From: a virus
Virus record (IMG/VR): IMGVR_UViG_3300045258_000075
Coordinates: 1-23,469 of that record
Direction: 5' to 3' (one strand)
Length of the DNA stretch: 23,469 bases
The translations under genes and the position numbers were made by a program. The notes beneath the pieces are model-generated. The model did no database searches, had not been told where the DNA came from, and worked only from the letters and a program-made list of their open reading frames with translations. Shown here one piece after another: positions 359 to 13,067 of the stretch. The stretch's first letter is position 1. Every line of letters starts with the position of its first letter.

Positions 359-3300
359 GTGGCGGGCCGCGGCCTTTTTCGTCGTCAGCCACAACCGCAA
401 CAGCCGCCGACCCGCCTTGTCCCCAGCGGCGCGGCGCCCATCTCTGTCACAGTCGCAGACAGCCTCTCGTCCATCACGGAAGCCGCCATTCGTACGAATG
501 GCGGCTATTACAACATCGTCAAGAACGACCTGCCGCTTGCCTACTGGCGTCTTGGCGATGTATCGGGTAATGCGCTAGACAGTAGCGGCAACGGTCACAC
601 CATGACCGCCAACGGCTCCATCACCCACGGCGTGACCGGCGCGCTGTCAGGCGACACCAACACGGCCATGACGTTCAATGGCGTCGATCAGTGGCTTCAG
701 GTCGCCTATGGCTCATGGGCCGACGTTGGCGACTCGTTCACACTGGAGTGTTGGTACAAGCGCGGGGCGAGTTCCAACGATTTCGAGACGCTCATGGTCA
801 TCACGACCGGGCCGAACCTGGAGGTCCGCTTCGGGGTCGTATATCTCCGCCAAGGTGACGGCGGTACGCCGGGCACATTCCTGCGCCATTCGTCGCTCGA
901 CCTGACCGGCGACACGAACTATCACCACATCGTCGGGACCAAGCGCGGCAGCGATGTCCACGTCTACATCGACGGGGTGGATGTCACCGTCTTCGACGGC
1001 GACTTCACGATGCCGAATGGCACCTACTCAGTCGATATCGGCTCGGGCGCGGACAACTACAACTACGCGCTCAAAGGCACAGTCGATGAAGCGGCGATCT
1101 ACAGCTACGCGCTGACCCCGACTCAGGTCGCCCGTCACTACGCCTCTCGGGTCAATAACCCGTGGTGGCCGAGGGCTGTCGCCGATTCAATCGCGACCCT
1201 GACAGAGGCGGTCGTCCGCACGGCAGGTGGTTACTACAAGGTCGTTCGCACGGATGGTCCGGTCGCCTACTGGCGCCTCGGAGAACTGACCGGCTCGACC
1301 GCCGACGATGACATCGGCTCCAACGATGGGACTTATGTCGCATCCCCGACCTTGGGGACGACTGGCGCTTTGTCGGGCGATACGAACACGGCGGTCACGT
1401 TCAACGGTTCGACTCAGTGGGTCACGATCAACGACAACAATGCTCTCGATGTCGGCGACAGGTTCAGCATCGAGGGATGGGCCTATCGTCCTGCGGCGTC
1501 TCTCGGGCAGGTCGGGGTCGTGGCGACCAAGGGCTTCGGCTCGTTCAGCATCGAGTGGGCCGACGACGAGAAAATCTACTTTCAGAAGTCAGGCGATAGC
1601 GAGATCGCCCAGTCTCTCGGGACGCTGTCAGTCGATACTTGGCATCACATCGTCTGCACCAAGAACGGGTCGGATTACCACGTCTACGTCGATGGCGTCG
1701 ATGTCACCAATCCTATCGGGAACCTCACCTTCACCAACAACGCCGAAGAGTTCATCATCGGGCGTCGTCGTCTTGCGGCCTCTCCGGGGTTCCCGTTTCC
1801 CGGTCGCCTCGATGAGATCGCGCTCTACGACTACGCGCTCAATGCGCGTCAGGTCGCTCGTCATTACGCAGCGAGGACCCTCAACCCGTGGTGGCCGCGG
1901 ACGGTCGCGGACTCGATCTCGACCCTCACTGAGGCGGTCGTGCGAGTCCTTATCTTTGGTCGCACGGTCACCGATTCTCTTGCAACCCTGACAGAGTCCG
2001 TCGTCCGGGGCCCGTTGACCATAGCGCGAACTGTCGCAGACTCCATCTCGTCCATCACGGCCACGGTGGCTCGTGTCCTGACGGCAAGCAGGACGGTCAC
2101 CGACAGCATCAGCACCCTGACCGAAGCCATCGTTCGTGGTCCTCTCACCATAGCAAGGGCCGCTGCCGATTCGATCAGTTCGATCACCGCCACGGTCGCC
2201 CGAGTCTTTACGGGAACCAGGACGGCCGCCGACTCACTGAGCGCCATCACCGAAGCCGTCGTTCGAGTCGTGACCTATGGCCGAACGGTCGCCGACTCCA
2301 TTGCCACCCTGACGGCGACAGTCGCTCGTGTCCTCACTGGTAGTCGGACGGCCGCCGATTCGGTCGCAACTCTCACTGACGCCGTGACTCGCGCCCTGGC
2401 ACTCGTTCGGACCGTCGCCGACAGGATCGAGGGCGCGTTCTACTACGCCGGGTTCTACATCTCGGGTTTCTACGACGGGACCATCTCTGACGCCATCACC
2501 CGCGTGGTGACGTTCGGTCGAACGACGGCCGACACACTGGCCGGTGACCCCGGCTTCCAGGTCGATTCCTTCCAGACGGGGACGTTCCAAGAGGGCGACG
2601 GCATCACCGAGTCGGTCAGCCGGGTCGGGACGTTCCTGCGCACCGGGGCTGACAGCCTCTCGACATTGACCGAGTCCGTCATCCGGGTCTTCGCGGGCTC
2701 GCGGACGGTCTCTGCGACCATCAGTGCCATCACCGAGGCAGTGTCGGCAGTCAAGACGTTCCCGCGGACGGTGGCCGACAGCCTGTCAAGCATCACCGAA
2801 TCGCCGACCCGTGTCGGTACCTTCATTCGGTCGGTGCCCCAGACGCTGGGCAGCATCGCCGAGGCGGTCACTCGAACCCTGTCCGGCGCCCGCAGCGTCG
2901 CCGATTCCCTGCCGACACTCACAGAGGCTGTGACTCGGATCGGGACGTTCACACGGACGGTCGCCCAGAGCTTGGGTTCCATCACAGAGGCCGTCACGAA
3001 GGTCGTCACGTTCGCTCGAACGACGAGCGATTCTCTTCCGACCTTGACTGAGGCGGTCAATCGAGTCGGGACATTCGCTCGAACGGTGGCCGATTCCATC
3101 GGGTCGATCAGCGAGACGGTCGCCGCAGCGACGAACGCACTGGTCCGAAGCGTCTCGGACAGCATCAGCAGCATCACTGAGACCGTCTCCCGTGCGGGCA
3201 CGTTCACGCGAACGGTCGCTGACAGCCTCGCGTCAATCACCGAGGCCGTCGTTGCGAGCATCACGACCATCATCCGCACGGTCTCGGACTCGATCAGTTC

Positions 3301-4282
3301 GATCACCGACTCGGCTAGCCGGACCCTGTCCGCCAGCCGCACGATCTCGGACACAGTTGCAGCCATCACCGAGGCCGTCACCCAGGTCACGGCATTCGGG
3401 CGAGCCGTCGCTGACTCTCTCTCATCCGTCACCGACAGCGTCAGCCGGGCGTGGACAGGTGCTCGAACCGCCACCGACACGGTCGGCTCCATCACCGAAG
3501 CCGTCTCGCGGGCGCTGGCATCCGTTCGGTCCGCCGCAGATTCCATCGTCAGCATCACCGAAGCGGTGGTGGCCGAGACCTTCTCGTCCATCGTCAGGAC
3601 CGTGGCCGACTCGGTCGCCTCCATCAGCGAGTCCGTGAGCCGCGTGCTGGTCATCAACCGGCTCATCAGTGACAGTCTCGGCGCCGTCTCAGAGGCCGTC
3701 ACTCGGGTCGGCACGTTCGTCCGCTCGGCTGCCGATAGCATCCCGTCCATCTCGGAGATGGTCGCGGCCGCCATCAAGACCATCCACGAGATCGCAGCGA
3801 CCATCACCATCGCGACGACTGCGGCGGCGTTGTCCATCCGCCAGACAGCGGCATCGATCAGCATCGACACAATCGCCGCAGCCATCACCGTCGTCGCACG
3901 CCGACTCATCGCGGCGGTTACGATTTCGTCCATCAGCGCCCACATCACAGTGAATGGGGAGGCCGTGACAGACATCCTTGTCGAGGGCGACACCGCCCCG
4001 CTCATCCAGGCCGTGTTGACCGATACCGTGACCGGCGACCCGGTGCCGGGTCTGGCGTCGGCCACCGTCTACTTCCAGCTTCGGCTCATCAGCGACCGGC
4101 GCTTCCGCATCAATGCCGAGTGCGACATCATCGACCCGGCCGCAGGGACGGTGAGCTATGAACTCCAGCCCGAAGACCTCGACTTCGACGGCGAGTGCCA
4201 GGCCCAGTTCCTCGTCGTCTTCGCGGACCAGACCCGCCAGACCACGGCAGTGCCGATCCCGGTCACCGTGAGGAACCGCTAG
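359..4282 (+). CDS. Giant tail fibre/adhesin: two LamG-like domains, about 30 repeats, BppU-like C-terminus
   Basis: This is a 1307-residue protein from GTG 359. Residues 1-28 are Pro/Gln/Arg-rich. LamG/concanavalin A-like lectin domains lie at about 55-263 and 296-506; both carry AYWRLG, GALSGDTNTA, HHIV and a YVDGVDVT-type strand, marking an internal duplication. From residue 514 to about 1142 come roughly 28 tandem units of consensus RTVADSISSITEAVVR plus a 5-6-residue spacer. Single units also precede each LamG domain (from about 31 and 272). Units 9 and 10 carry Gly/aromatic insertions (AFYYAGFYISGFYDG; PGFQVDSFQTGTFQEG). Degenerate repeats run to about 1200. The C-terminal 100 residues resemble the N-terminal domain of the BppU family of phage baseplate proteins (VEGDTAP, DPAAGTVSYELQPEDLDFDG). 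I infer a surface-binding fibre with a long repetitive shaft. There is no signal peptide. An alternative is a head fibre, given its position before the capsid genes. Confidence 0.85.
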   Translation: MAGRGLFRRQPQPQQPPTRLVPSGAAPISVTVADSLSSITEAAIRTNGGYYNIVKNDLPLAYWRLGDVSGNALDSSGNGHTMTANGSITHGVTGALSGDTNTAMTFNGVDQWLQVAYGSWADVGDSFTLECWYKRGASSNDFETLMVITTGPNLEVRFGVVYLRQGDGGTPGTFLRHSSLDLTGDTNYHHIVGTKRGSDVHVYIDGVDVTVFDGDFTMPNGTYSVDIGSGADNYNYALKGTVDEAAIYSYALTPTQVARHYASRVNNPWWPRAVADSIATLTEAVVRTAGGYYKVVRTDGPVAYWRLGELTGSTADDDIGSNDGTYVASPTLGTTGALSGDTNTAVTFNGSTQWVTINDNNALDVGDRFSIEGWAYRPAASLGQVGVVATKGFGSFSIEWADDEKIYFQKSGDSEIAQSLGTLSVDTWHHIVCTKNGSDYHVYVDGVDVTNPIGNLTFTNNAEEFIIGRRRLAASPGFPFPGRLDEIALYDYALNARQVARHYAARTLNPWWPRTVADSISTLTEAVVRVLIFGRTVTDSLATLTESVVRGPLTIARTVADSISSITATVARVLTASRTVTDSISTLTEAIVRGPLTIARAAADSISSITATVARVFTGTRTAADSLSAITEAVVRVVTYGRTVADSIATLTATVARVLTGSRTAADSVATLTDAVTRALALVRTVADRIEGAFYYAGFYISGFYDGTISDAITRVVTFGRTTADTLAGDPGFQVDSFQTGTFQEGDGITESVSRVGTFLRTGADSLSTLTESVIRVFAGSRTVSATISAITEAVSAVKTFPRTVADSLSSITESPTRVGTFIRSVPQTLGSIAEAVTRTLSGARSVADSLPTLTEAVTRIGTFTRTVAQSLGSITEAVTKVVTFARTTSDSLPTLTEAVNRVGTFARTVADSIGSISETVAAATNALVRSVSDSISSITETVSRAGTFTRTVADSLASITEAVVASITTIIRTVSDSISSITDSASRTLSASRTISDTVAAITEAVTQVTAFGRAVADSLSSVTDSVSRAWTGARTATDTVGSITEAVSRALASVRSAADSIVSITEAVVAETFSSIVRTVADSVASISESVSRVLVINRLISDSLGAVSEAVTRVGTFVRSAADSIPSISEMVAAAIKTIHEIAATITIATTAAALSIRQTAASISIDTIAAAITVVARRLIAAVTISSISAHITVNGEAVTDILVEGDTAPLIQAVLTDTVTGDPVPGLASATVYFQLRLISDRRFRINAECDIIDPAAGTVSYELQPEDLDFDGECQAQFLVVFADQTRQTTAVPIPVTVRNR
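521..1876 (+). repeat. Duplicated LamG-like domain coding segments
   Basis: Two segments of the fibre gene (about 521-1147 and 1244-1876) encode the same lectin-like fold in the same order. Each is preceded by a YY-x-VV segment and followed by QVARHYA, then NPWWPR and a VADS repeat. The matched flanks show that the duplicated unit was lectin plus linker plus one shaft repeat, not the lectin alone. Confidence 0.8.
1898..3784 (+). repeat. Shaft repeat array, about 28 units of 63-66 bp
   Basis: In-frame tandem repeats begin at CGG 1898 (Arg514 of the fibre). Each unit encodes Arg at position 1, Asp-Ser at 5-6, Ile/Leu at 7, Ile/Leu at 10, Thr-Glu at 11-12, Val at 14 and usually Arg at 16. Most units are 21 residues and a few are 22 or 23. 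Protein identity is well kept while the DNA has drifted, so most of the array is old. Units 2-3 and 4-5 form a closer pair (43-residue super-repeat with GPLTIA). Confidence 0.9.
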
Positions 4283-4993
4283 ATGGGCATCACCCACGCC
4301 AAGGTCAGCGCCAAGTCAGACGGCGGGGATTCGAGTCTTGTCCGTCCGTCGGATTGGAATGCTCCTCATGTCGTTGACCTCAACTTGGCTGTGGACCTCA
4401 TCAAGCTCTACACCCAGGACGCGCAGAACACGGCATCGTGGTCGAAGTCCATCACCGCCCTGAGCACTGGTGAACGGATCATCGTCTGCATCACCTCGTG
4501 GGGTCGCGACGTGAACACCCCGACTCTGACCAACGTCACGTTCACCGAAGTCCTCGCCGTCAACTTCTCCACGACCATCTACACCTCGGCCTATGTTGGA
4601 GTGGCATCGGGCACATCGGGGACGACGCTCGGCATCACGGCGACCGGCTCCAACTGGATCATCGGCGATGTCTACGTCGTGGCCGACACACTCACCCCGA
4701 CGGCGGGCACGAGTTCGACCCTGAGTAATACGGATGTCACATCCATCAGCGGGACGCCGATGCGGGTCATCGGCTCGGTCGGATCGTTCTTCATCATGGC
4801 GATCTCGCAGGACAACGGCACGACCTCTCTCGGTGCGCCGACCGGTAATGGGTTCATCACGCATGCGACGCAGTTGGCCAACTCCACCCTGTCGTCCGGT
4901 ATCGGTAGGACGCTGGCGCCGTCATTCAGCGGCTCATTCAGTGGTGGCACTGGTGGGGCCGACGGTTCGGCCGGGGTCGTTCTGGTCACGTAG
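4283..4993 (+). CDS. Virion-associated protein with MGITHAKVSA leader
   Basis: This encodes 236 residues. ATG 4283 follows the fibre stop (TAG 4280-4282) with no gap. The N-terminus MGITHAKVSAKSDGGDSS followed by VRPSDWNAPHV is a signature I associate with phage tail-fibre and minor structural proteins, and it recurs in the next gene. The rest is rich in Thr, Ser, Gly and Val with alternating hydrophobics, as in a beta-sandwich virion domain, and the C-terminus is Gly/Ser-rich (SGSFSGGTGGADGSAG). There are no membrane segments, catalytic motifs or signal peptide. I infer an adhesin-like accessory subunit sharing an attachment peptide with its neighbour; the ligand is unknown. Confidence 0.7.
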   Translation: MGITHAKVSAKSDGGDSSLVRPSDWNAPHVVDLNLAVDLIKLYTQDAQNTASWSKSITALSTGERIIVCITSWGRDVNTPTLTNVTFTEVLAVNFSTTIYTSAYVGVASGTSGTTLGITATGSNWIIGDVYVVADTLTPTAGTSSTLSNTDVTSISGTPMRVIGSVGSFFIMAISQDNGTTSLGAPTGNGFITHATQLANSTLSSGIGRTLAPSFSGSFSGGTGGADGSAGVVLVT

Positions 4994-5005
4994 GAGGCAC
5001 TGAAC

Positions 5006-5590
5006 TTGGGCATCACACACGCGAAGGTCAGCGCCGTCCCAGATGGAACGAATGCCGGGCAAGTCCAGCCGACTGATTGGAATGCCGACCATGTTGGCGG
5101 ACTCAGCCAGTCCTATGTCGGCTACAACACGATTGGTGGGGCGTGGACCGCGACGGTCGGTGGGCGGATGTATGCCAAGAAGGTAACGCTCGCGAGTGCT
5201 GCCATCCTGCTCGCCATCGAGATTCATGTTCGTCCGAACGCCGACAACTTCTCGGATATCGAAGGTCTGGTGGCAGAGGACTCGGCATCCACGGTCGGTC
5301 TCATCATCGGCGGCGCGAGCGTCGGCGCGGTCCTGATGTCGGCAGCGACATCCGGCTTCCCCGGTACGGGACGGTGGTTCTCGATCCCCATCGGGAAGTA
5401 CCTGACAGCCGCGTCCTACTGGATCGGCTTCCGCACGGGGGCTGCCATCCTTGACATCGCCAATGACGCGAGCGGGTCAGACCGCTACTGGACGAACACA
5501 GGCGGCAACTACATCTCGGGCAATCACGCGTCCTTGACGCAAACCGACTCGACGCTCAAATACAGCATCCGCGCAAGCATCCTGTCCTAA
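5006..5590 (+). CDS. Virion-associated beta-sandwich protein, paired with upstream gene
   Basis: This encodes 194 residues from TTG 5006. TTG is chosen because GGAGG at 4993-4997 is 8 bases upstream, and because the resulting N-terminus (MGITHAKVSA, then QPTDWNADHV) matches the preceding protein. After residue 35 the sequence QSYVGYNTIGGAWTAT and a series of strands ending in LKYSIRASILS resemble small jelly-roll domains of phage tails or carbohydrate-binding folds (a DUF4082-like fold is a guess). The two proteins share only the first 30 or so residues, so a common docking peptide carries different C-terminal heads. No enzyme motif is seen. Confidence 0.65.
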   Translation: MGITHAKVSAVPDGTNAGQVQPTDWNADHVGGLSQSYVGYNTIGGAWTATVGGRMYAKKVTLASAAILLAIEIHVRPNADNFSDIEGLVAEDSASTVGLIIGGASVGAVLMSAATSGFPGTGRWFSIPIGKYLTAASYWIGFRTGAAILDIANDASGSDRYWTNTGGNYISGNHASLTQTDSTLKYSIRASILS

Positions 5591-5615: not shown

Positions 5616-6812
5616 GTGGCAAGGATTTTGCTCATAGCAGACGCGGGCGTTCCGTCGGGGTTCGGGACCGTCTCGCACGCCATCTTCGAGAGGCTGGTCC
5701 GTGATTACCATCACGAGGTCCATGTCCTCGCGATCAACTGGCAGGGCGACGTGCCGGACACGCCGATGCGGCTGTATCTGCCGACCCAGAAGGACTCGCA
5801 GGACTACATGGGCATGAGCCGCTACGTCGAACTCGTGGCCAAGCTCCTGCCCGACCTCATCTTCTTCATCAACGACCCGGCGGCAGTGCTGAACTCGTTG
5901 ACCAACAATCGTTTCGATGCCGAGGGCGCTCTGTGGCGCGGCATCCAGACCGGCGACACCCCGTACAAGCCGCCGATCCTCGCCTACATGCCCATCGACG
6001 GCTACGACTCGCCCAAGAGTTGGGACCTGCTGGTGCCAAGGGTGAAGCGCATCGCGATGACCCACTTCGGCCAGCAGGCGATGCCCGAGGCGCCGGTCAT
6101 CTGGCACGGCGTCGATCACAGCATCTTCAAGCCGCAAAACAAGAAGGACGCCAAGAAAGCGCTGGGCTTTGACCCCGACCGCTTCCTCGTGCTTCGAGTG
6201 GACAAGAACTCGACCCGCAAGAACTATCCCGACACGTGGCGCGCCTTGCGCCCGCTCATGCATAAGTACCCAGATATGGATGCCCACTTTCACTGTCTTC
6301 CGCGAGCAGCCGACGGCAACGACCTGATGGCTTTCGCGTGGAACGACGAGGACATCCGAGACCGCCTGACGTTCTCGCCGAGCCTGACCGGCCACACCGG
6401 CTGGGATGTGAAGCATCTGGCCACCCTGTACGCGGCCGCGGACCTGTTCGTCAGTACCTCATGGGGCGAGGGCTTCGGCCTGACCCTCCTTGAAGCCATG
6501 GCCTGCGGCACGCCGGTCATCGCCACCGACTGCTCGGCCATCACCGAAGTCGTCGGCGACGGCGGCATCCTCATCCCGCCGAAGGGCCGTATCGCAACCC
6601 CGATGGGGCAGGACCAATGCCTGCCCGATGTCGAGGCATTCACCGCCGCCATCGATCACTTCCGGCAGAGCAGCGGTCTCCGAAAGACCCTGCGGGCAAA
6701 CACACTCGTCCAAGCTGCCAAGTTCTCCTGGGACGAAGCCGCGCGGCGGATGAATGTGGAGATCACCAAAGCACTCGAACCAGTCAACGAAATCCCAGCC
6801 TTAGTCACCTAG
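5616..6812 (+). CDS. GT-B glycosyltransferase (GT4-like)
   Basis: This encodes 398 residues from GTG 5616, with GAGGGAG just upstream. The N-terminus MARILLIADAGVPSGFGTVS is the first Rossmann strand and glycine-rich loop of GT-B enzymes of the GT4 type. Residues 190-204 (RFLVLRVDKNSTRKN) fit the start of the C-terminal, nucleotide-sugar-binding domain. Glu285 and Glu293 form the EX7E motif (GEGFGLTLLEAMACGTPVI), the donor-sugar site of retaining GT4 enzymes. Length and both lobes are complete and there is no membrane anchor, so it should act in the cytoplasm. It lies between fibre and capsid genes in the same transcription direction, so a virion protein is a plausible acceptor; the Ser/Thr-rich fibre repeats next door are attractive but unproven. 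Altering host surface glycans is the alternative. Confidence 0.9.
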   Translation: MARILLIADAGVPSGFGTVSHAIFERLVRDYHHEVHVLAINWQGDVPDTPMRLYLPTQKDSQDYMGMSRYVELVAKLLPDLIFFINDPAAVLNSLTNNRFDAEGALWRGIQTGDTPYKPPILAYMPIDGYDSPKSWDLLVPRVKRIAMTHFGQQAMPEAPVIWHGVDHSIFKPQNKKDAKKALGFDPDRFLVLRVDKNSTRKNYPDTWRALRPLMHKYPDMDAHFHCLPRAADGNDLMAFAWNDEDIRDRLTFSPSLTGHTGWDVKHLATLYAAADLFVSTSWGEGFGLTLLEAMACGTPVIATDCSAITEVVGDGGILIPPKGRIATPMGQDQCLPDVEAFTAAIDHFRQSSGLRKTLRANTLVQAAKFSWDEAARRMNVEITKALEPVNEIPALVT

Positions 6813-6842: not shown

Positions 6843-8051
6843 ATGCCACCGACCCTGACGACGAAGTCGTCAATCGACACCATCAACAGGCCGCGCTTCG
6901 CCATCGTCACCAAGGCCCTCGCCGGAGAGGCCGATCCCGAGGGCAAGCCGCGGTTCAAGGCGGTTGCCTCGTCAACCATCACTGACCGTGACGGCGACGA
7001 GATCAGCCTGAAGGCGCTCCAGCAGATGCGCGACAAGTTCCGTGACGGCATCACCATCTTCACGGACCACGAGAACAAGGTCGCCAACGCCTACGGAACC
7101 ACGGACAGTGCGGAGATCGTCCAAGCCGGGTCAGATGCCAAGGGCAACACTGTCTGGGACCTGCATATCTCCGGCCCCGTCAACGAGCCGAGCCCGACCG
7201 CGATGCAACTGCATCAGTCCATCTCGGGTGGCTACGTGAAGCTCGGCTGCTCCATCGATGCGTTCGTCATGGAGCACGAGCGAAAGAAGTCAGGCGGCCT
7301 GTCCATCGACGGGCTCGATGTGTTCGCCGCGTCCATCGTCGGCGTCCCTGCCAATCAGCGGTCGTGGGCTCAGAAGGCAGTCCGGGCCATCAAGAGTTTC
7401 CGACCCGATGAGGAGGATGAGCCTGTGCCGCCTGAGACCGAAGACGAGAAGGTCCCCGAGAAGGACACGACAGAAGGCGTCGCTGCCGATCCGGCGACCC
7501 CCACCACCCCGGACGAGTCCGAGGCCGGTGAGGCGACCGAAGAGGCCAAGGCCGAGTCACCGGAGGTCGAGAAGTCCATCGAGGTTTGCCCCGACTGCGG
7601 ACAGAGCGCAGAGACGACGGGGTGTGATAATGGTTTCCATGCAGTTGCTTCGGCAACTGATGAAGACGCCACGGGTGGTCAGGCATCTGCCGAAGAGGTA
7701 GAAACCCCTGAGACAGCACCCAGCGCCGAGGACGAGGCCGACCCTGCCATCGAGCAGAAGGCTGCCGCTCTGGCGCCGGAGGTTGCCGAACTCCTGGGTC
7801 ACGTCGAGAAGCTGGTCAAGGAGATCAAGCACCTGCGCGATGAGAACGCAGCCTTGATCGCCGCGAACGCCACGCTGAAGGCGGAGAACCAGACAGTGTT
7901 CGGCGAGGTCGAACTGGCGAAGGCGGTCATCGAGAAGGTCATGGAGCAGCCGCTTCGAGCGAAGACGGCGGGCTACGTGAGCAGCTTCACCGATGTCCAC
8001 AAGCTGTTCGATCCCGAAATCGCAGAATACCTGGCCAAACGAGGAGACTAG
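6843..8051 (+). CDS. Prohead protease fused to scaffold-like C-terminal region
   Basis: This encodes 402 residues from ATG 6843 with AGAGGAGG upstream. Residues 15-185 match the caudovirus prohead serine protease family (HK97 gp4-like): VASSTITDRDGDEIS, then FTDHENKVANAYG with candidate catalytic His76, then GYVKLGCSIDAF with Ser137, then FAASIVGVPAN. Residues 186-310 are very acidic and Pro/Thr-rich, probably disordered, except for a Cys2-Cys-His cluster at 249-266. Residues 312-365 are strongly helical/coiled-coil (VEKLVKEIKHLRDENAALIAA), typical of a scaffold (delta-like) region. The enzyme should mature the prohead by cleaving the scaffold and capsid termini. The stop abuts the capsid ATG. 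An internal start that might release the scaffold alone is listed separately. Confidence 0.9.
   Translation: MPPTLTTKSSIDTINRPRFAIVTKALAGEADPEGKPRFKAVASSTITDRDGDEISLKALQQMRDKFRDGITIFTDHENKVANAYGTTDSAEIVQAGSDAKGNTVWDLHISGPVNEPSPTAMQLHQSISGGYVKLGCSIDAFVMEHERKKSGGLSIDGLDVFAASIVGVPANQRSWAQKAVRAIKSFRPDEEDEPVPPETEDEKVPEKDTTEGVAADPATPTTPDESEAGEATEEAKAESPEVEKSIEVCPDCGQSAETTGCDNGFHAVASATDEDATGGQASAEEVETPETAPSAEDEADPAIEQKAAALAPEVAELLGHVEKLVKEIKHLRDENAALIAANATLKAENQTVFGEVELAKAVIEKVMEQPLRAKTAGYVSSFTDVHKLFDPEIAEYLAKRGD
7411..7427 (+). promoter_or_regulatory. Possible internal ribosome binding site and GTG start for a free scaffold
   Basis: AGGAGG at 7411-7416 stands 8 bases before GTG 7425-7427, which is in frame with the protease at codon 195, exactly where the protease domain ends. 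Translation here would give a 208-residue protein with only the acidic linker, Cys cluster and coiled coil, analogous to lambda Nu3 made from inside gene C. The caveat is that GAG-GAG codons of an acidic linker create such motifs by chance. Confidence 0.4.
7642..7659 (+). other. Perfect 7-bp hairpin with cUUCGg tetraloop inside the protease gene
   Basis: CAGTTGC (7642-7648), TTCG, GCAACTG (7653-7659) forms a perfect stem closed by the exceptionally stable C(UUCG)G tetraloop. It lies in the linker coding region just after the Cys/His cluster. No T-run follows, so it is not a standard terminator. It could pause ribosomes or be chance. Confidence 0.5.
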
Positions 8052-9335
8052 ATGCCTGAAACCGGATTGGAGAACGTCCTCGCGGCGCTCTCCGAGTTCG
8101 GGGGCTCGTTCGATAAGGCGAACGACACCCACGAGCCGATCCTGAAGTCCACTGGCGACGATGTCAGTGGCTCGATGCCCTCGATGCGCAAGGTGCTGTC
8201 CAACGGGGACCGCATCCTGATGCAGCGGGAACTCATGAAGCTGAACTCGAACGAACTCACCGAGTTGTTCTACATCCAGCTTTCCAAGCAGCAGGGCGTT
8301 CCGCTCGGGAACGACTATCTGCTTTCGCAGGCGATGGGGAACGACCCGCTCATCAGCAAGGTGCTTGACACCACTGGTGGCGCGGCGCTCCAGCGCATCG
8401 ACCTCGAACCGATCCTGTACACGATGTTCGTCAAGGCTTTCCCGGCCTACGAGCGGATGCGCAAGGTCCCGGCCAACGGTCTGATCCACTCGTGGAACCA
8501 GATCACCGCCTATGGCGACGCGGAGTTCATGACCGAACTCGGCACCGTCACGGACGACAACGCGACCTACGTCCGCCAGAACACGAACATCGCCCAGCTT
8601 GCCACCCGGCGTGGCGTCACCTTCCGCGAGCAGCTTGCTGTTCCGGCGGGCGGCATGCCGTGGAACCCCCAGCAGATCGAAATCCAGCAGGGCCTCACCG
8701 CGATGGCCCACAAGATGCAGAAGACGATTTTCCAGGGGCAGGCATCCAACTCGGGCGGCACCGCGTCGAACGAGCTTGGACTCTACGATCCCAACGGGTT
8801 CACCGGCCTTCGGTCGATCCTGAACACGGCGGACGCCGTCAACTTCAGCCCGTATCTCACGTCGAACCCCGACACCTTCGCTGCGGCAATCGGCGCCACC
8901 ATGGTTCCGATCACCAACGCAGGCGGCGGCGTGCCGAACGTGGTCTACATGCGGGCACAGGAGCAGCAGCGCCTGACGGATAGCCTCACCTCTATCCAGC
9001 GGTCTGTTGATCGGACCGAGTTCGTTCCGGGTCTCACGGTCCCGGCCATCGCCACAGGTGTCGGCCTCGTGCCGGTCTTCGGTGTCCCCGGAGACTCCAT
9101 CGGGACCTACACGGCGACCACGTTCTCGGGCAAGACGGTCGCGGACGTTTACGTCCTCGATGACAACAGCATCGTGCTGCCGTACCTCGGTTCGCCGGGG
9201 CCGTCCGTCCTGGAAATCCCGCCGGGTGTGAGCGGCCAGCTTACGCGGCTGTTCATCATCTACCTGTTCAACGGCCTTGCGGTGCTCACCCTGACGCACA
9301 ACAACAAGGCTCGCGCGAACCTCGCGACCTCGTAG
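8052..9335 (+). CDS. Major capsid protein, HK97-fold type
   Basis: This encodes 427 residues. ATG 8052 directly follows the protease stop, with GAGGAG in the end of the protease gene as ribosome site. The identity rests on position directly after the protease/scaffold, on size, and on sequence pattern: a helical N-terminal region (about 1-95), then GGAALQRIDLEPILYTMF, a stretch typical of the start of the HK97-fold core, with the E-loop region expected around 150-200 and A-domain strands towards the C-terminus (SVLEIPPGVSGQ). No long separate delta domain is evident, which fits scaffolding being carried by the protease gene. It is followed by hairpins and a terminator, consistent with the capsid message being the end of a highly expressed unit. 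A different HK97-fold virion protein is unlikely. Confidence 0.85.
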   Translation: MPETGLENVLAALSEFGGSFDKANDTHEPILKSTGDDVSGSMPSMRKVLSNGDRILMQRELMKLNSNELTELFYIQLSKQQGVPLGNDYLLSQAMGNDPLISKVLDTTGGAALQRIDLEPILYTMFVKAFPAYERMRKVPANGLIHSWNQITAYGDAEFMTELGTVTDDNATYVRQNTNIAQLATRRGVTFREQLAVPAGGMPWNPQQIEIQQGLTAMAHKMQKTIFQGQASNSGGTASNELGLYDPNGFTGLRSILNTADAVNFSPYLTSNPDTFAAAIGATMVPITNAGGGVPNVVYMRAQEQQRLTDSLTSIQRSVDRTEFVPGLTVPAIATGVGLVPVFGVPGDSIGTYTATTFSGKTVADVYVLDDNSIVLPYLGSPGPSVLEIPPGVSGQLTRLFIIYLFNGLAVLTLTHNNKARANLATS

Positions 9336-9346
9336 TCATCGGGGCG

Positions 9347-9372
9347 CTCGGCGGCGTCCCCGGCCCGCCGAG
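9347..9372 (+). other. GC-rich hairpin just after the capsid gene
   Basis: CTCGGCGG (9347-9354) and CCGCCGAG (9365-9372) form a perfect 8-bp stem with a 10-base loop, starting 12 bases after the capsid stop. There is no T-run, so it is not a classical intrinsic terminator; an mRNA 3'-end stabiliser or weak pause is possible. Confidence 0.5.
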
Positions 9373-9428
9373 AGCCCTACCCCACCCAGCACGCTCCATA
9401 CGGTGCCCGGACCCCCGCCGGGCTCCAC

Positions 9429-9480
9429 GGCGCGGGGCTGGTGTGGTGGACTCCCTCCCACTGAGTACCAGCCCCGCGCC
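9429..9480 (+). other. Long 14-bp inverted repeat
   Basis: GGCGCGGGGCTGGT (9429-9442) pairs perfectly with ACCAGCCCCGCGCC (9467-9480); inside the loop GTGG (9443-9446) can also pair with CCAC (9458-9461). This is the strongest hairpin I see in the window. It lies in non-coding DNA between the capsid gene and the convergent terminator. With no T-run it may protect the mRNA, bind a protein, or be part of a small structured RNA. Confidence 0.75.
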
Positions 9481-9490
9481 ACACATATAG

Positions 9491-9522
9491 AAAGACCCCG
9501 CCACGAATGGACGGGGTCTTTT
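9491..9522. terminator. Bidirectional intrinsic terminator
   Basis: AAAGACCCCG (9491-9500) and CGGGGTCTTT (9512-9521) form a perfect 10-bp stem with an 11-base loop. TTTT (9519-9522) closes it on the plus strand, and the minus strand reads CTTTCTATAT after the stem. It ends the capsid transcript from the left and the leftward small-gene cassette, whose last stop is at 9535, from the right. Confidence 0.85.
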
Positions 9523-9534
9523 GCTGAGAGGGGG

Positions 9535-9771
9535 TTACTGGCCGGAGTTGTACGCCTCGCTCGGCGCGGCGGGTCCGGCAGGATGCTCTTCGGCCCAATC
9601 GGTCGTAGTCGGGGTATCCGACCCCTGCTGGTTGCGCTGCGGAACGTCAGAGACCTCGGATCGACCGGGGGACTCAGCCATCCGGTCCATCGCGGCCTTG
9701 TCATTGGCCTGCGTCTTTGCGTTGGCCTTTTCCTTCTTCGGGGCGACTCCGCCCTTCGTGGTCTGAACCAT
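9535..9771 (-). CDS. Leftward small disordered protein (third cassette gene)
   Basis: This encodes 78 residues from ATG 9771-9769 on the minus strand. The start overlaps the stop of the previous leftward gene (TGATG), with AGGAGG 7 bases upstream inside that gene. The protein is Lys-rich at the N-terminus (KKEKANAKTQANDKAAMDR) and acidic/Pro/Gly/Ser/Gln-rich later, with almost no bulky hydrophobics, so it is probably disordered. There is no signal peptide, membrane segment or Cys. It ends 13 bases before the bidirectional terminator. The function is not recognised; small highly charged phage proteins next to capsid genes may be decoration, internal or host-interaction proteins, and none of these can be chosen here. 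Confidence 0.7.
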   Translation of the reverse strand: MVQTTKGGVAPKKEKANAKTQANDKAAMDRMAESPGRSEVSDVPQRNQQGSDTPTTTDWAEEHPAGPAAPSEAYNSGQ

Positions 9772-9941
9772 CACTTGTCCTCCTTCTTGGGCTCCTCGGT
9801 GGGCTCGTCAACGACTTTGCCGTCGGTCACGCCGCCGGGGCGATTGCCGACCATTCCGTCTTCGCGGGCGAGTTCAACAACGCTCGTTCGCTGTCGGCGC
9901 TGCTCCTCGGCGATGTCATCCAGTTCCTTCTTGGTGGGCAC
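9771..9941 (-). CDS. Leftward small charged protein (second cassette gene)
   Basis: This encodes 56 residues from GTG 9941-9939 on the minus strand, with a perfect AGGAGG (complement of 9948-9953) 6 bases upstream and overlapping the stop of the preceding leftward gene. The sequence runs MPTKKELDDIAEEQRRQRTS, a helical charged start, then VELAREDGMVGNRPGGV and an acidic/Lys tail (EEPKKEDK). The motif LARE-x-G-x-V and a nearby PGG recur in the first cassette gene, so the two may be diverged copies. It has no Cys and no membrane segment. Coding status rests on ribosome site, coupling and the shared motif, not on a recognised family. Confidence 0.7.
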   Translation of the reverse strand: MPTKKELDDIAEEQRRQRTSVVELAREDGMVGNRPGGVTDGKVVDEPTEEPKKEDK

Positions 9942-9951
9942 TGTGAACCTC

Positions 9952-10128
9952 CTAAGACTTGGTCTCGGGCGCCGGGTGGCGCTCGATGGTCACAGGCGCA
10001 CCGCGGGTGTCGCGGTTCTGGTTGCCGTGAGCAGGGACATCCTGCGCCGGGCCGCCCGGCTTCGCAACGTTTCCGGCCTCGCGGGCCAGGTCTTTCTCGG
10101 GAACCGTCTTGGTCTGATCCTGTGCCAT
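9952..10128 (-). CDS. Leftward small charged protein (first cassette gene)
   Basis: This encodes 58 residues from ATG 10128-10126 on the minus strand, preceded by AAGGAGG with a normal spacing. The sequence starts MAQDQTKTVPEKDLAREAGN and continues through PGG, a HGNQNRDTRG segment and a Pro/Glu end; it is hydrophilic and probably disordered. It shares LARE-x-G-x-V...PGG with the next leftward gene. It is first in a three-gene leftward unit that ends at the terminator near 9500. Its transcription must start in the 77 bases shared with the rightward connector gene. Function is unknown. Confidence 0.7.
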   Translation of the reverse strand: MAQDQTKTVPEKDLAREAGNVAKPGGPAQDVPAHGNQNRDTRGAPVTIERHPAPETKS

Positions 10129-10195
10129 GGTGACCTCCTTATCGTTCCCTCATGGCGTTACCCTAGAGCCGCCTGCATTACAGCGACACACACAC
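10129..10195. promoter_or_regulatory. Divergent intergenic region, candidate promoters
   Basis: The terminator at 9491-9522 should stop capsid transcription, and the cassette runs leftward, so starts for both directions are expected here. Overlapping -10-like hexamers occur: TACCCT (plus, 10159-10164) and TAGGGT (minus, 10165-10160). No convincing -35 boxes are seen, so the assignment rests mainly on gene layout. Confidence 0.25.
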
Positions 10196-10205
10196 GGGAG
10201 GACTG

Positions 10206-11108
10206 ATGGCAAACGTCTCGTATCTCTCGGTCAATCGCTATCTCCGCGGCGGCTTCGGCATCGACGTTCCGGCTGACTACAGTCGCGCGACCCTGCGCAA
10301 CAAACTCGTGCAGGCGACGACCGTGGTCAACAGCTACTGCGGTGCCCCATCACAGCCGCAGGCGTTCGACTTCCGTGGCGGAGTGGTGACCGGCGAGCAG
10401 CACCAGTGGCCGTACATCGATCCCTTGCTCGTGAAGTCGGGCTCGCGCCGGGTCTTCCTCAACCAGCGGCCGCTCGTCAGCGTCGAGTCATTCGTGCTCC
10501 AACTGGCCGAGAACTATACGGTCACCCTCAACCCGGCGACCAATGTCGTCGTGAACAAGATGGAGGGCTATGCAGAGGTCGTCGCACTGACTCCGGTCAT
10601 CTCGGGCTACTTCCCGGTCGGATGGAACTTCGGCCTGTGGAACCCGTTGGCCGTCGTGGACTACACCTATGGCTGGACCTTTGGGGTGGTGGGTGATGAA
10701 TGCGAGGCGGAGTCTCCGACAATCTTCACTGCGAGTCACGGCAACTGGACTGTCGCGTCCGCGGTCTATATCGATGGGGTGGAGCAGGACCCCGATGACT
10801 ACACCATCAAGCTCGATGACGGCTCCATCACCTTCGACACAGAGCCCGACATCGACTCCGTCGTCACCTGCGACTACACCTACAACCTCCCCGACGCCAT
10901 CAGCCAAGCCACCGGCATCGTGACGACCGGCCTGATCGCCAGCGCCCGCATGGCGTCGCGCGGCATGCTGGGCATGCAATCCATCCGCGTCGCCGAGGTC
11001 GCCCTGACCGCACTCCAGCCGAGCCAGATGGTCAACAAGAACGGCGTCTCCATCCCGTCCGAGGCGGCGGACCTGCTTGGCCGCTACACCATCGGCTCGG
11101 CGGCTTAG
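10206..11108 (+). CDS. Head-tail connector (adaptor) with inserted beta-module
   Basis: This encodes 300 residues from ATG 10206, with GGGAGG (10196-10201) upstream. Position after the capsid gene and helices at 24-46 (ADYSRATLRNKLVQATTVVN) and about 228-265 (DAISQATGIVTTGLIASARM) suggest a gp6/gp15-like adaptor that docks on the portal. The protein is about twice the usual size. The extra part is largely a beta-module at 171-226 (SAVYIDGVEQDPDDYTIKLD, then GSITFDTEPDIDSVVTCDYT). That module resembles the ends of the two tail-tip proteins downstream. It may face outwards at the neck as a decoration or whisker anchor. No catalytic motif is seen. The family call is from context and fold pattern. 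Confidence 0.65.
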   Translation: MANVSYLSVNRYLRGGFGIDVPADYSRATLRNKLVQATTVVNSYCGAPSQPQAFDFRGGVVTGEQHQWPYIDPLLVKSGSRRVFLNQRPLVSVESFVLQLAENYTVTLNPATNVVVNKMEGYAEVVALTPVISGYFPVGWNFGLWNPLAVVDYTYGWTFGVVGDECEAESPTIFTASHGNWTVASAVYIDGVEQDPDDYTIKLDDGSITFDTEPDIDSVVTCDYTYNLPDAISQATGIVTTGLIASARMASRGMLGMQSIRVAEVALTALQPSQMVNKNGVSIPSEAADLLGRYTIGSAA

Positions 11109-12323: not shown

Positions 12324-13067
12324 GTGCCTGCCTTCAACATCCCGGCGATCATGGCGTCGGTCCGCCAGGCCGAGGCGTCGGCACTGGAGATCGTCGGCGC
12401 ACAGGTCGTGGCGGAGGCTCGCCGACGGGCGCCCATCCGCAAGGTGTTCAAGGAGCCCAAGGGCTTCAAGCGAAAGTTCCGCCCACTCACCTCGGCCGAG
12501 AAGGTGCTTGCCATCAAGCGCGCCAACGCCTACTACGGCGAAGGTTCGTTCAACGCCCGTCGCGCCACTGCCCACATCCGCAACTACGCCAAGGTCCAGC
12601 TTCCGCGGCGGGGCTCGAACAATGCCCTGAGCCGCTCCAGGAAGGCCCGAGTGCTGGGCGTAGAGCGTGGACGCCAGTTCATCCCTCGAACGGACGCAAC
12701 GAGGGTTGTGAGCCGTCGTACGGGCGCACAGGGCTTCGACAGCCCGTCACTCAACAAACAACTGACAGCGCGGGGGCGCTTCGAGGTCCGCACAGGACGA
12801 GCGATCCATCGGGAAGCGTTGCCCGGAGGAGGGAGCCGTGTCCACATCGGCGGCGCATTGAAGGCATCCATCGAGTCAGAGGGTGTCGTCCAGACTGGGG
12901 AAGGCGCAGAGAACCGGGTCACCGCGGGCATTCGCTATGCGAAGTTCGTGGAGTTCCCGACCATCCGCACCCATGCCCAGCCATTCCTCCTACCGGCCCT
13001 GCATGACAATCGTCAACGACTCGTGAAGACGATGGCGGCAGAGGTCAAGAAAGCACTCGGAGGCTAG
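12324..13067 (+). CDS. Tail-completion/neck protein, HK97 gp10-like
   Basis: This encodes 247 residues from GTG 12324; AGAAGG at 12308-12313 is a modest ribosome site. The C-terminal third carries the family pattern: GALKASIESEGVV, then IRYAKFVEFPTIRTHAQPFLLPALHD, a Y-x3-VEF-x-T...PF-x2-PA signature of HK97 gp10-type proteins that join tail to head. The middle (about 40-160) is a long, very basic insertion (RKVFKEPKGFKRKFR, RRATAHIRN, SRSRKARVLGVERGR), making it longer than typical 110-150-residue members; it could contact DNA or the tail terminator. It is followed within 4 bases by the tail-terminator gene. Confidence 0.75.
   Translation: MPAFNIPAIMASVRQAEASALEIVGAQVVAEARRRAPIRKVFKEPKGFKRKFRPLTSAEKVLAIKRANAYYGEGSFNARRATAHIRNYAKVQLPRRGSNNALSRSRKARVLGVERGRQFIPRTDATRVVSRRTGAQGFDSPSLNKQLTARGRFEVRTGRAIHREALPGGGSRVHIGGALKASIESEGVVQTGEGAENRVTAGIRYAKFVEFPTIRTHAQPFLLPALHDNRQRLVKTMAAEVKKALGG

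Follow-up and report, generated by a model that had tools for sequence, protein, structure and literature searches.

A stretch of viral DNA of 23,469 bases (IMG/VR record IMGVR_UViG_3300045258_000075; hereafter the window), possibly a fragment of a tailed phage genome, probably carries a moron-like accessory cassette inserted at a hotspot between its major capsid and head-tail connector genes. The cassette consists of three short genes, denoted P1, P2 and P3. A simple gene call put these three on the minus strand and the other 18 of 21 genes on the plus strand. The cassette runs leftward, against the direction of the structural genes, in the slot between the capsid gene and the connector. The sequence-only reading already had viewed these proteins as members of a cassette and had placed them beside capsid genes. 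Both ideas were borne out: the locus is a reverse-oriented unit of three genes, P1-P2-P3, that directly adjoins the gene for the major capsid protein.

The surrounding genes were assigned by family matches. A glycosyltransferase gene (positions 5616-6812; phrog_2170, E = 8.1e-37) is followed by a protease-like gene (6843-8051) with a sub-threshold match to Peptidase_S78 and by the plus-strand major capsid gene (8052-9335; SU10_MCP, phrog_752). The plus-strand connector gene (10206-11108; phrog_442, E 6.8e-9) and, further downstream, a neck-type gene (12324-13067) lie beyond the cassette. The glycosyltransferase gene immediately precedes the protease-like and capsid genes, and a similar open reading frame was seen by eye at the same place in L011, a relative considered below. 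Elsewhere in the window, positions 359-4282 encode a protein of 1307 aa in whose translation many RTVADSISSITEAVVR-type repeats are visible by eye. A tRNA scan detected none, and Rfam gave two sub-threshold matches. The G+C content of the 9001-10000 bin (0.657) falls inside the range of the other window bins (0.581-0.688) and the cassette therefore shows no sign of foreign composition.

P1 (58 aa; 9952-10128, minus strand) starts at the ATG of AAGGAGGTCACC-ATG and P2 (56 aa; 9771-9941, minus strand) at the GTG of AGGAGGTTCACA-GTG, whereas P3 (9535-9774, minus strand) comprises 79 aa if translated from a GTG at 9774 or 78 aa from an ATG at 9771. A ribosome-binding site precedes each of the three starts. 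The P2 stop codon overlaps the P3 ATG in the sequence TGATG, which suggests that translation of the two genes may be coupled. Codon log-odds were trained on nine long genes of the window, which themselves were scored without being held out and ranged from 0.217 to 0.443. The values for P1 (0.261), P2 (0.299) and P3 (0.266) lie inside this range, and those of four opposing or overlapping frames (138, 267, 122 and 81 aa) were negative. Judged by codon usage, ribosome-binding sites and the TGATG overlap, P1, P2 and P3 very probably are real coding genes that are translated. The opposite view, in which the three frames are not genes and the capsid-connector stretch is just hairpins and spacer, can draw on the small size of the frames, the existence of a single relative cassette and the long opposing frames of 138 and 267 aa. 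It is scarcely credible in the face of codon usage that favors P1-P3 and disfavors the opposing frames, the good ribosome-binding sites, the likeness between P3 and a protein of the relative cassette, and an AT skew in the 9001-10000 bin (-0.219) that is the lowest among the window bins. The residues VILMFWCY make up 12-20% of the three proteins and GRAVY values range from -1.18 to -1.36, figures which fit disorder. The proteins are hydrophilic and probably disordered.

The occupancy of the slot was surveyed at loci obtained from IMG/VR by scans for capsid genes, the last of which kept 80 of 116 relatives, and by a connector scan. The gap was measured from the capsid stop codon to the connector start. 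A copy of the window (L001) and a locus with the capsid end off the contig (L051) were left out of the 133 gap rows, and L005 and L063 had no row. Rows that were identical over the 150 nt before and the 60 nt after the capsid stop were merged to give 76 distinct sequences, one of them that of the window. For 74 of these the connector could be located, the exceptions being L144 and L145. Sixty-two of the 74 slots have a short gap of -4 to 178 nt, in contrast to about 870 nt in the window, and the other 12 contain an insert. The window cassette is an insertion between genes that are adjacent in related phages, which is a criterion for morons.

Every one of the 12 inserts is oriented opposite to the capsid gene. 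Eight encode HNH_3 proteins (L002, L003, L018, L029, L030, L084 with two genes, L097 and L120), two encode Endonuclease_7 proteins (L032 and L116) and two, those of the window and L011, comprise three small frames; these are counts of distinct sequences and not of independent events, the HNH proteins of L018 and L030 being nearly identical. The two genes of L084 are reversed HNH_3 genes arranged in tandem after the capsid gene (1006-2086). No nuclease domain was found in P1-P3: P1 and P2 had no Pfam match to E = 1, and P3 had only a sub-threshold match to DNA_pol3_tau_4. The longest two of the short gaps, in L010 and L079, both hold hairpins; a minus-strand frame of 60 aa in the L079 gap was taken for a chance occurrence.

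In a capsid tree of 70 of the 76 sequences, the window is placed beside L002 (support 100/100) and L011 weakly beside L010 (89/66). L002, the 86% sister of the window, has an HNH gene in the slot and no cassette, and L010 has a short gap. Inserts come and go at the slot, as near-identical capsids differ in the presence of HNH_3: L018 and L097 have the HNH gene whereas their respective counterparts L027 and L099 have short gaps, with capsid end branches of 0-0.004. The tree is compatible either with one gain of the cassette followed by losses or with two gains. The sole capsid relative from one scan of GTDB genomes, L063 (PNKK01000002.1), is on a contig of an Anaerolinea metagenome-assembled genome and has 41% identity. 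This match provides a weak lead towards a Chloroflexota host for the phage group.

The orientation of the cassette, the sharing of its slot with nucleases and the empty state of that slot in most relatives examined argue for an accessory role and not a core structural one. The products of P1-P3 would then target the host or other phages, or regulate phage genes, and not build the particle.

The DNA that flanks the cassette contains several candidate transcription signals. Two inverted repeats that form hairpins follow the capsid gene, at 9342-9377 and, with a perfect 14-bp stem, at 9429-9480, and both have counterparts in L002. This two-hairpin element (9336-9480 in the window; 2314-2453 in L002) is kept despite the different genes inserted around it. 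All 65 of the capsid-connector stretches that were folded, without shuffled counterparts and some including the connector start, had energies of -16.8 kcal/mol or lower. A strong hairpin after the capsid gene seems common among the relatives and likely acts as a terminator or attenuator. The nuclease gene precedes the hairpin in L002 and L003 and the insert follows it in L018, L030, L029, the window and L011; the order was resolved in these seven of the 12 filled slots and not in the other five. A CCTCC loop in some of the capsid-connector hairpins was considered as an anti-Shine-Dalgarno element and was dropped, as this sequence is also present, with stems counted, in 21 of 54 other gap stretches. 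A terminator of its own is a feature of morons. A repeat search between the capsid gene and the end of P3 located a perfect 10-bp inverted repeat, AAAGACCCCG/CGGGGTCTTT, at 9491-9521, which is a candidate terminator for convergent transcripts; it was absent from the list produced by a consensus terminator scan. On the other side of the cassette, gene coordinates define a divergent intergenic stretch at 10129-10205 in which a leftward promoter of the cassette's own would lie. A search of 9300-10400 for the sigma-70 consensus, the only type sought, found none, and almost none are expected in shuffled sequences either.

The second cassette, in L011 (IMGVR_UViG_3300036851_000447; a 44.7-kb contig, G006), was reached through gene position and P3 and not through the peptide by which P1 and P2 had originally been linked. 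It comprises the minus-strand frames Q1 (5337-5513), Q2 (5074-5334) and Q3 (4899-5063), which are the sole minus-strand genes called before 42.2 kb of the contig (20,001-21,522 being unread); six more follow that point. The alignment of P3 with Q2 extends over most of both proteins, has a score of 58 and includes a common MVxTTxGxV start and PSxAxNSG end. This score was equalled by none of 2000 shuffles, by 0-2 of 1000 in four alignment settings and by none of 5000 real unrelated segments in each direction. As a larger test gave 5 of 20000 shuffles, P3 and Q2 are graded as very probably homologous. P3 in the window was not reported when Q2 was searched against 28 virus records at E up to 10, which returned its own contig alone, nor by tblastn with Q2 at E up to 1. 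Likeness between P1 and Q3 (17 of 2000 shuffles) is suggestive, and that between P2 and Q1 (241 of 2000) is not significant. P3-Q2 alone among the nine window-L011 protein pairs can be regarded as safe. Should the weak P1-Q3 and P2-Q1 likenesses prove genuine, the genes of L011 would be circularly permuted (P2-P3-P1) relative to those of the window. Overall, the two cassettes are alike in that each comprises three small reversed genes, occupies the capsid-connector slot and lies between the strong hairpin and the connector, and in the likeness of Q2 to P3. However, the L011 cassette lacks the peptide shared by P1 and P2, and its remaining genes cannot be aligned convincingly to P1 or P2.

A strand-helix-turn-helix pattern is a mark of ribbon-helix-helix proteins. 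Q2 displays such a pattern by eye, and single-sequence models place helices at residues 36-44 and 53-64 of Q2 and, for the trimmed core, at 13-23 and 30-42, which would be consistent with a cassette that is a regulatory DNA-binding unit with Q2 as its ribbon-helix-helix protein. This alternative nonetheless is unlikely. The Q2 models contain no strand and have pTM values of 0.21-0.30, no Pfam family matched Q2 up to E = 1, and the RHH_1 and RHH_3 profiles, these two being tested singly, had no match in its record at E up to 10. Foldseek gave no match below E = 6 and VIA none, and P3 is without the segment. The weak matches of Q2 are instead with proteins from phage tail regions (such as the tail-fiber family phrog_32894, E 0.0073); they carry no weight as evidence of function, but count against the ribbon-helix-helix assignment.

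Searches of Pfam, PHROGs, NCBIfam and PADLOC with P1-P3 and Q1-Q3 produced sub-threshold matches or none. Pattern scans of IMG/VR for close relatives yielded five stretches for P1 and 48 for P2, none of which was confirmed, and six for the N-terminal pattern of P3, one of which was the L011 contig and the other five unrelated frames. Among phage records, P1 had one match (E = 6), P3 matched 17 records, all at E of 3 or more, and P2, Q1 and Q3 had no match. Q2 matched three records: one at E = 0.05, within a long frame that follows a distal tail gene, and, at E = 2, two that belong to a single Erwinia phage and are annotated as hypothetical or tail fiber; it had no match among plasmids up to E = 1 or among PDB sequences up to E = 10. 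In the 28 virus records, P1 matched the window and, at E = 0.013, a part of the L011 contig; the latter match overlaps a gene of 488 aa in another frame and was judged to be due to chance. The six proteins appear to be new in sequence, within an arrangement of a known kind.

Attention had been drawn to the locus by a peptide, LARE-x-G-x-V followed by PGG, that the sequence-only reading described as common to two cassette proteins. Both copies are present as quoted, and alignment and a motif statistic identify DLAREAGNVAKPGG in P1 at 10051-10092 and ELAREDGMVGNRPGG in P2 at 9831-9875. The range given previously, 9852-10080, cuts into both peptides, and the description was silent on strand, which is minus for both P1 and P2. 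The two proteins have a BLOSUM62 local (Smith-Waterman) score of 36, a value that 240 of 5000 composition shuffles also attained; when gap penalties and alignment mode were varied in four settings, the P1-P2 score was reached by 36, 13, 65 and 32 of 1000 shuffles, the value of 13 being that for free-end global alignment. When unrelated real segments were drawn from the other proteins of the window, 28 of 5000 pairs reached a score of 36, and against such segments the score was attained in 100 of 3000 comparisons with P1 and 19 of 3000 with P2. P1 scores 38 and P2 36 against a low-complexity linker in the protease-like protein that the phage itself encodes, and thus a score of 36 is nothing special for sequences of this type. 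The motif statistic, which counts identities in an eight-residue window plus the following triplet and was defined after the motif had been seen, is 9 for P1-P2 and was matched by none of 2000 shuffles, even if any of the three protein pairs could count. Comparison with shuffled sequences, which had been named as a test that could refute the match, therefore was mixed, the motif statistic standing out and the alignment score being marginal. The peptide can fairly be called unusual, but it is short, and the statistic that favors it most was selected post hoc.

Similarity between P1 and P2 is restricted to about 15 residues and, in the DNA, to one stretch of 22 nt with 82% identity. The local score of P1 with P3 (45) exceeds that with P2, and was equalled by 93 of 5000 shuffles and by 0-31 of 1000 in the four settings; the three proteins may be alike through a common composition or because they are anciently related as a group. 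The proposal that P1 and P2 are tandem duplicates that have kept one functional peptide, as the first description had it, derives support from the nine identities of the post hoc motif statistic, the free-end global alignment (13 of 1000) and the adjacent positions of the two genes on one strand. Nevertheless, duplication of this kind is rather doubtful in view of the marginal alignment score, the absence of in-register DNA likeness beyond the 22 nt, the closer score of P1 with P3 and the lack of the motif in Q1-Q3.

A family defined by the peptide is not supported by the relatives found. LARE and PGG were absent by eye from the translations of Q1-Q3 of L011, the sole relative cassette found, and an IMG/VR scan for the motif with P1-type spacing, using a degenerate pattern that also admitted F for L and S for R, gave 10 stretches of which none was judged related. 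Nine of these carry FASEVGxVDWPGG in one recurring kind of frame, which we take to be a tail protein, and were judged unrelated; the tenth, a frame of 143 aa with LARESGYVVTPGG, was judged a chance match. The same observations bear on the suggestion of a shared binding peptide. P1 and P2 are hydrophilic, are encoded beside capsid genes and, apart from the peptide, are unlike each other; a short linear motif for the binding of a single partner, such as the capsid, the connector or a host protein, might account for its presence in both, but the peptide-free L011 cassette and the 10 stretches found in IMG/VR with P1-type spacing, none judged related, make this quite improbable. Either P1-P2 paralogy has left the peptide as a short remnant or the peptide arose by convergence in similar low-complexity sequence. 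The observation of the peptide is partly confirmed, and it is not the defining feature of the cassette.

The interpretation of P1-P2-P3 as a moron-like accessory cassette draws on two known cassettes and can be compared with established arrangements. Moron loci are characteristically antisense according to one published account (PMC7067206), and promoters of their own are noted as typical of morons in another (PMC6814406). Moron loci and P1-P3 share a location between genes that are adjacent in relatives, reversal relative to the structural genes and small products. They differ in that the promoter of the cassette is conjectural, the records searched contain no integrase or resolvase and the G+C content is not atypical. 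Neither enzyme was found in 11 records, possibly fragments, that included the window and the 44.7-kb L011 contig; lysogenic conversion therefore is unsupported, as is the classical lysogenic sense of the term moron. A role in lytic growth, exerted against the host or against rival phages, would be more likely.

A further parallel is segD of phage T4, a free-standing GIY-YIG endonuclease gene located between genes 23 (major capsid) and 24 in the opposite orientation, for which no promoter was found by that account (PMC2988022). As described there, segD resembles the cassette in occupying, in reverse, the slot directly after the major capsid gene, and resembles 10 of the 12 filled slots of this survey in being an endonuclease insert, here of HNH_3 or Endonuclease_7 type. 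In contrast to segD, P1-P3 have no endonuclease domain. A reversed nuclease gene after the capsid gene thus was already known from T4. No closer arrangement was found in a literature search that included PMC7260188 and covered few subscription papers. It is conceivable, albeit improbable, that P1-P3 typify a new, fast-diverging cassette of tiny disordered proteins that competes with homing endonucleases for the post-capsid slot, possibly sparing the phage from these enzymes or acting on rival phages.

A doubtful peptide match has in this way been turned into a testable locus: a reversed hotspot after the capsid gene that holds either nucleases or small proteins, the latter having no match among the families searched. 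A cassette that blocks homing or affects the host would add a class of small proteins to the genes with which phages compete; one that does neither would be a further accessory insertion.
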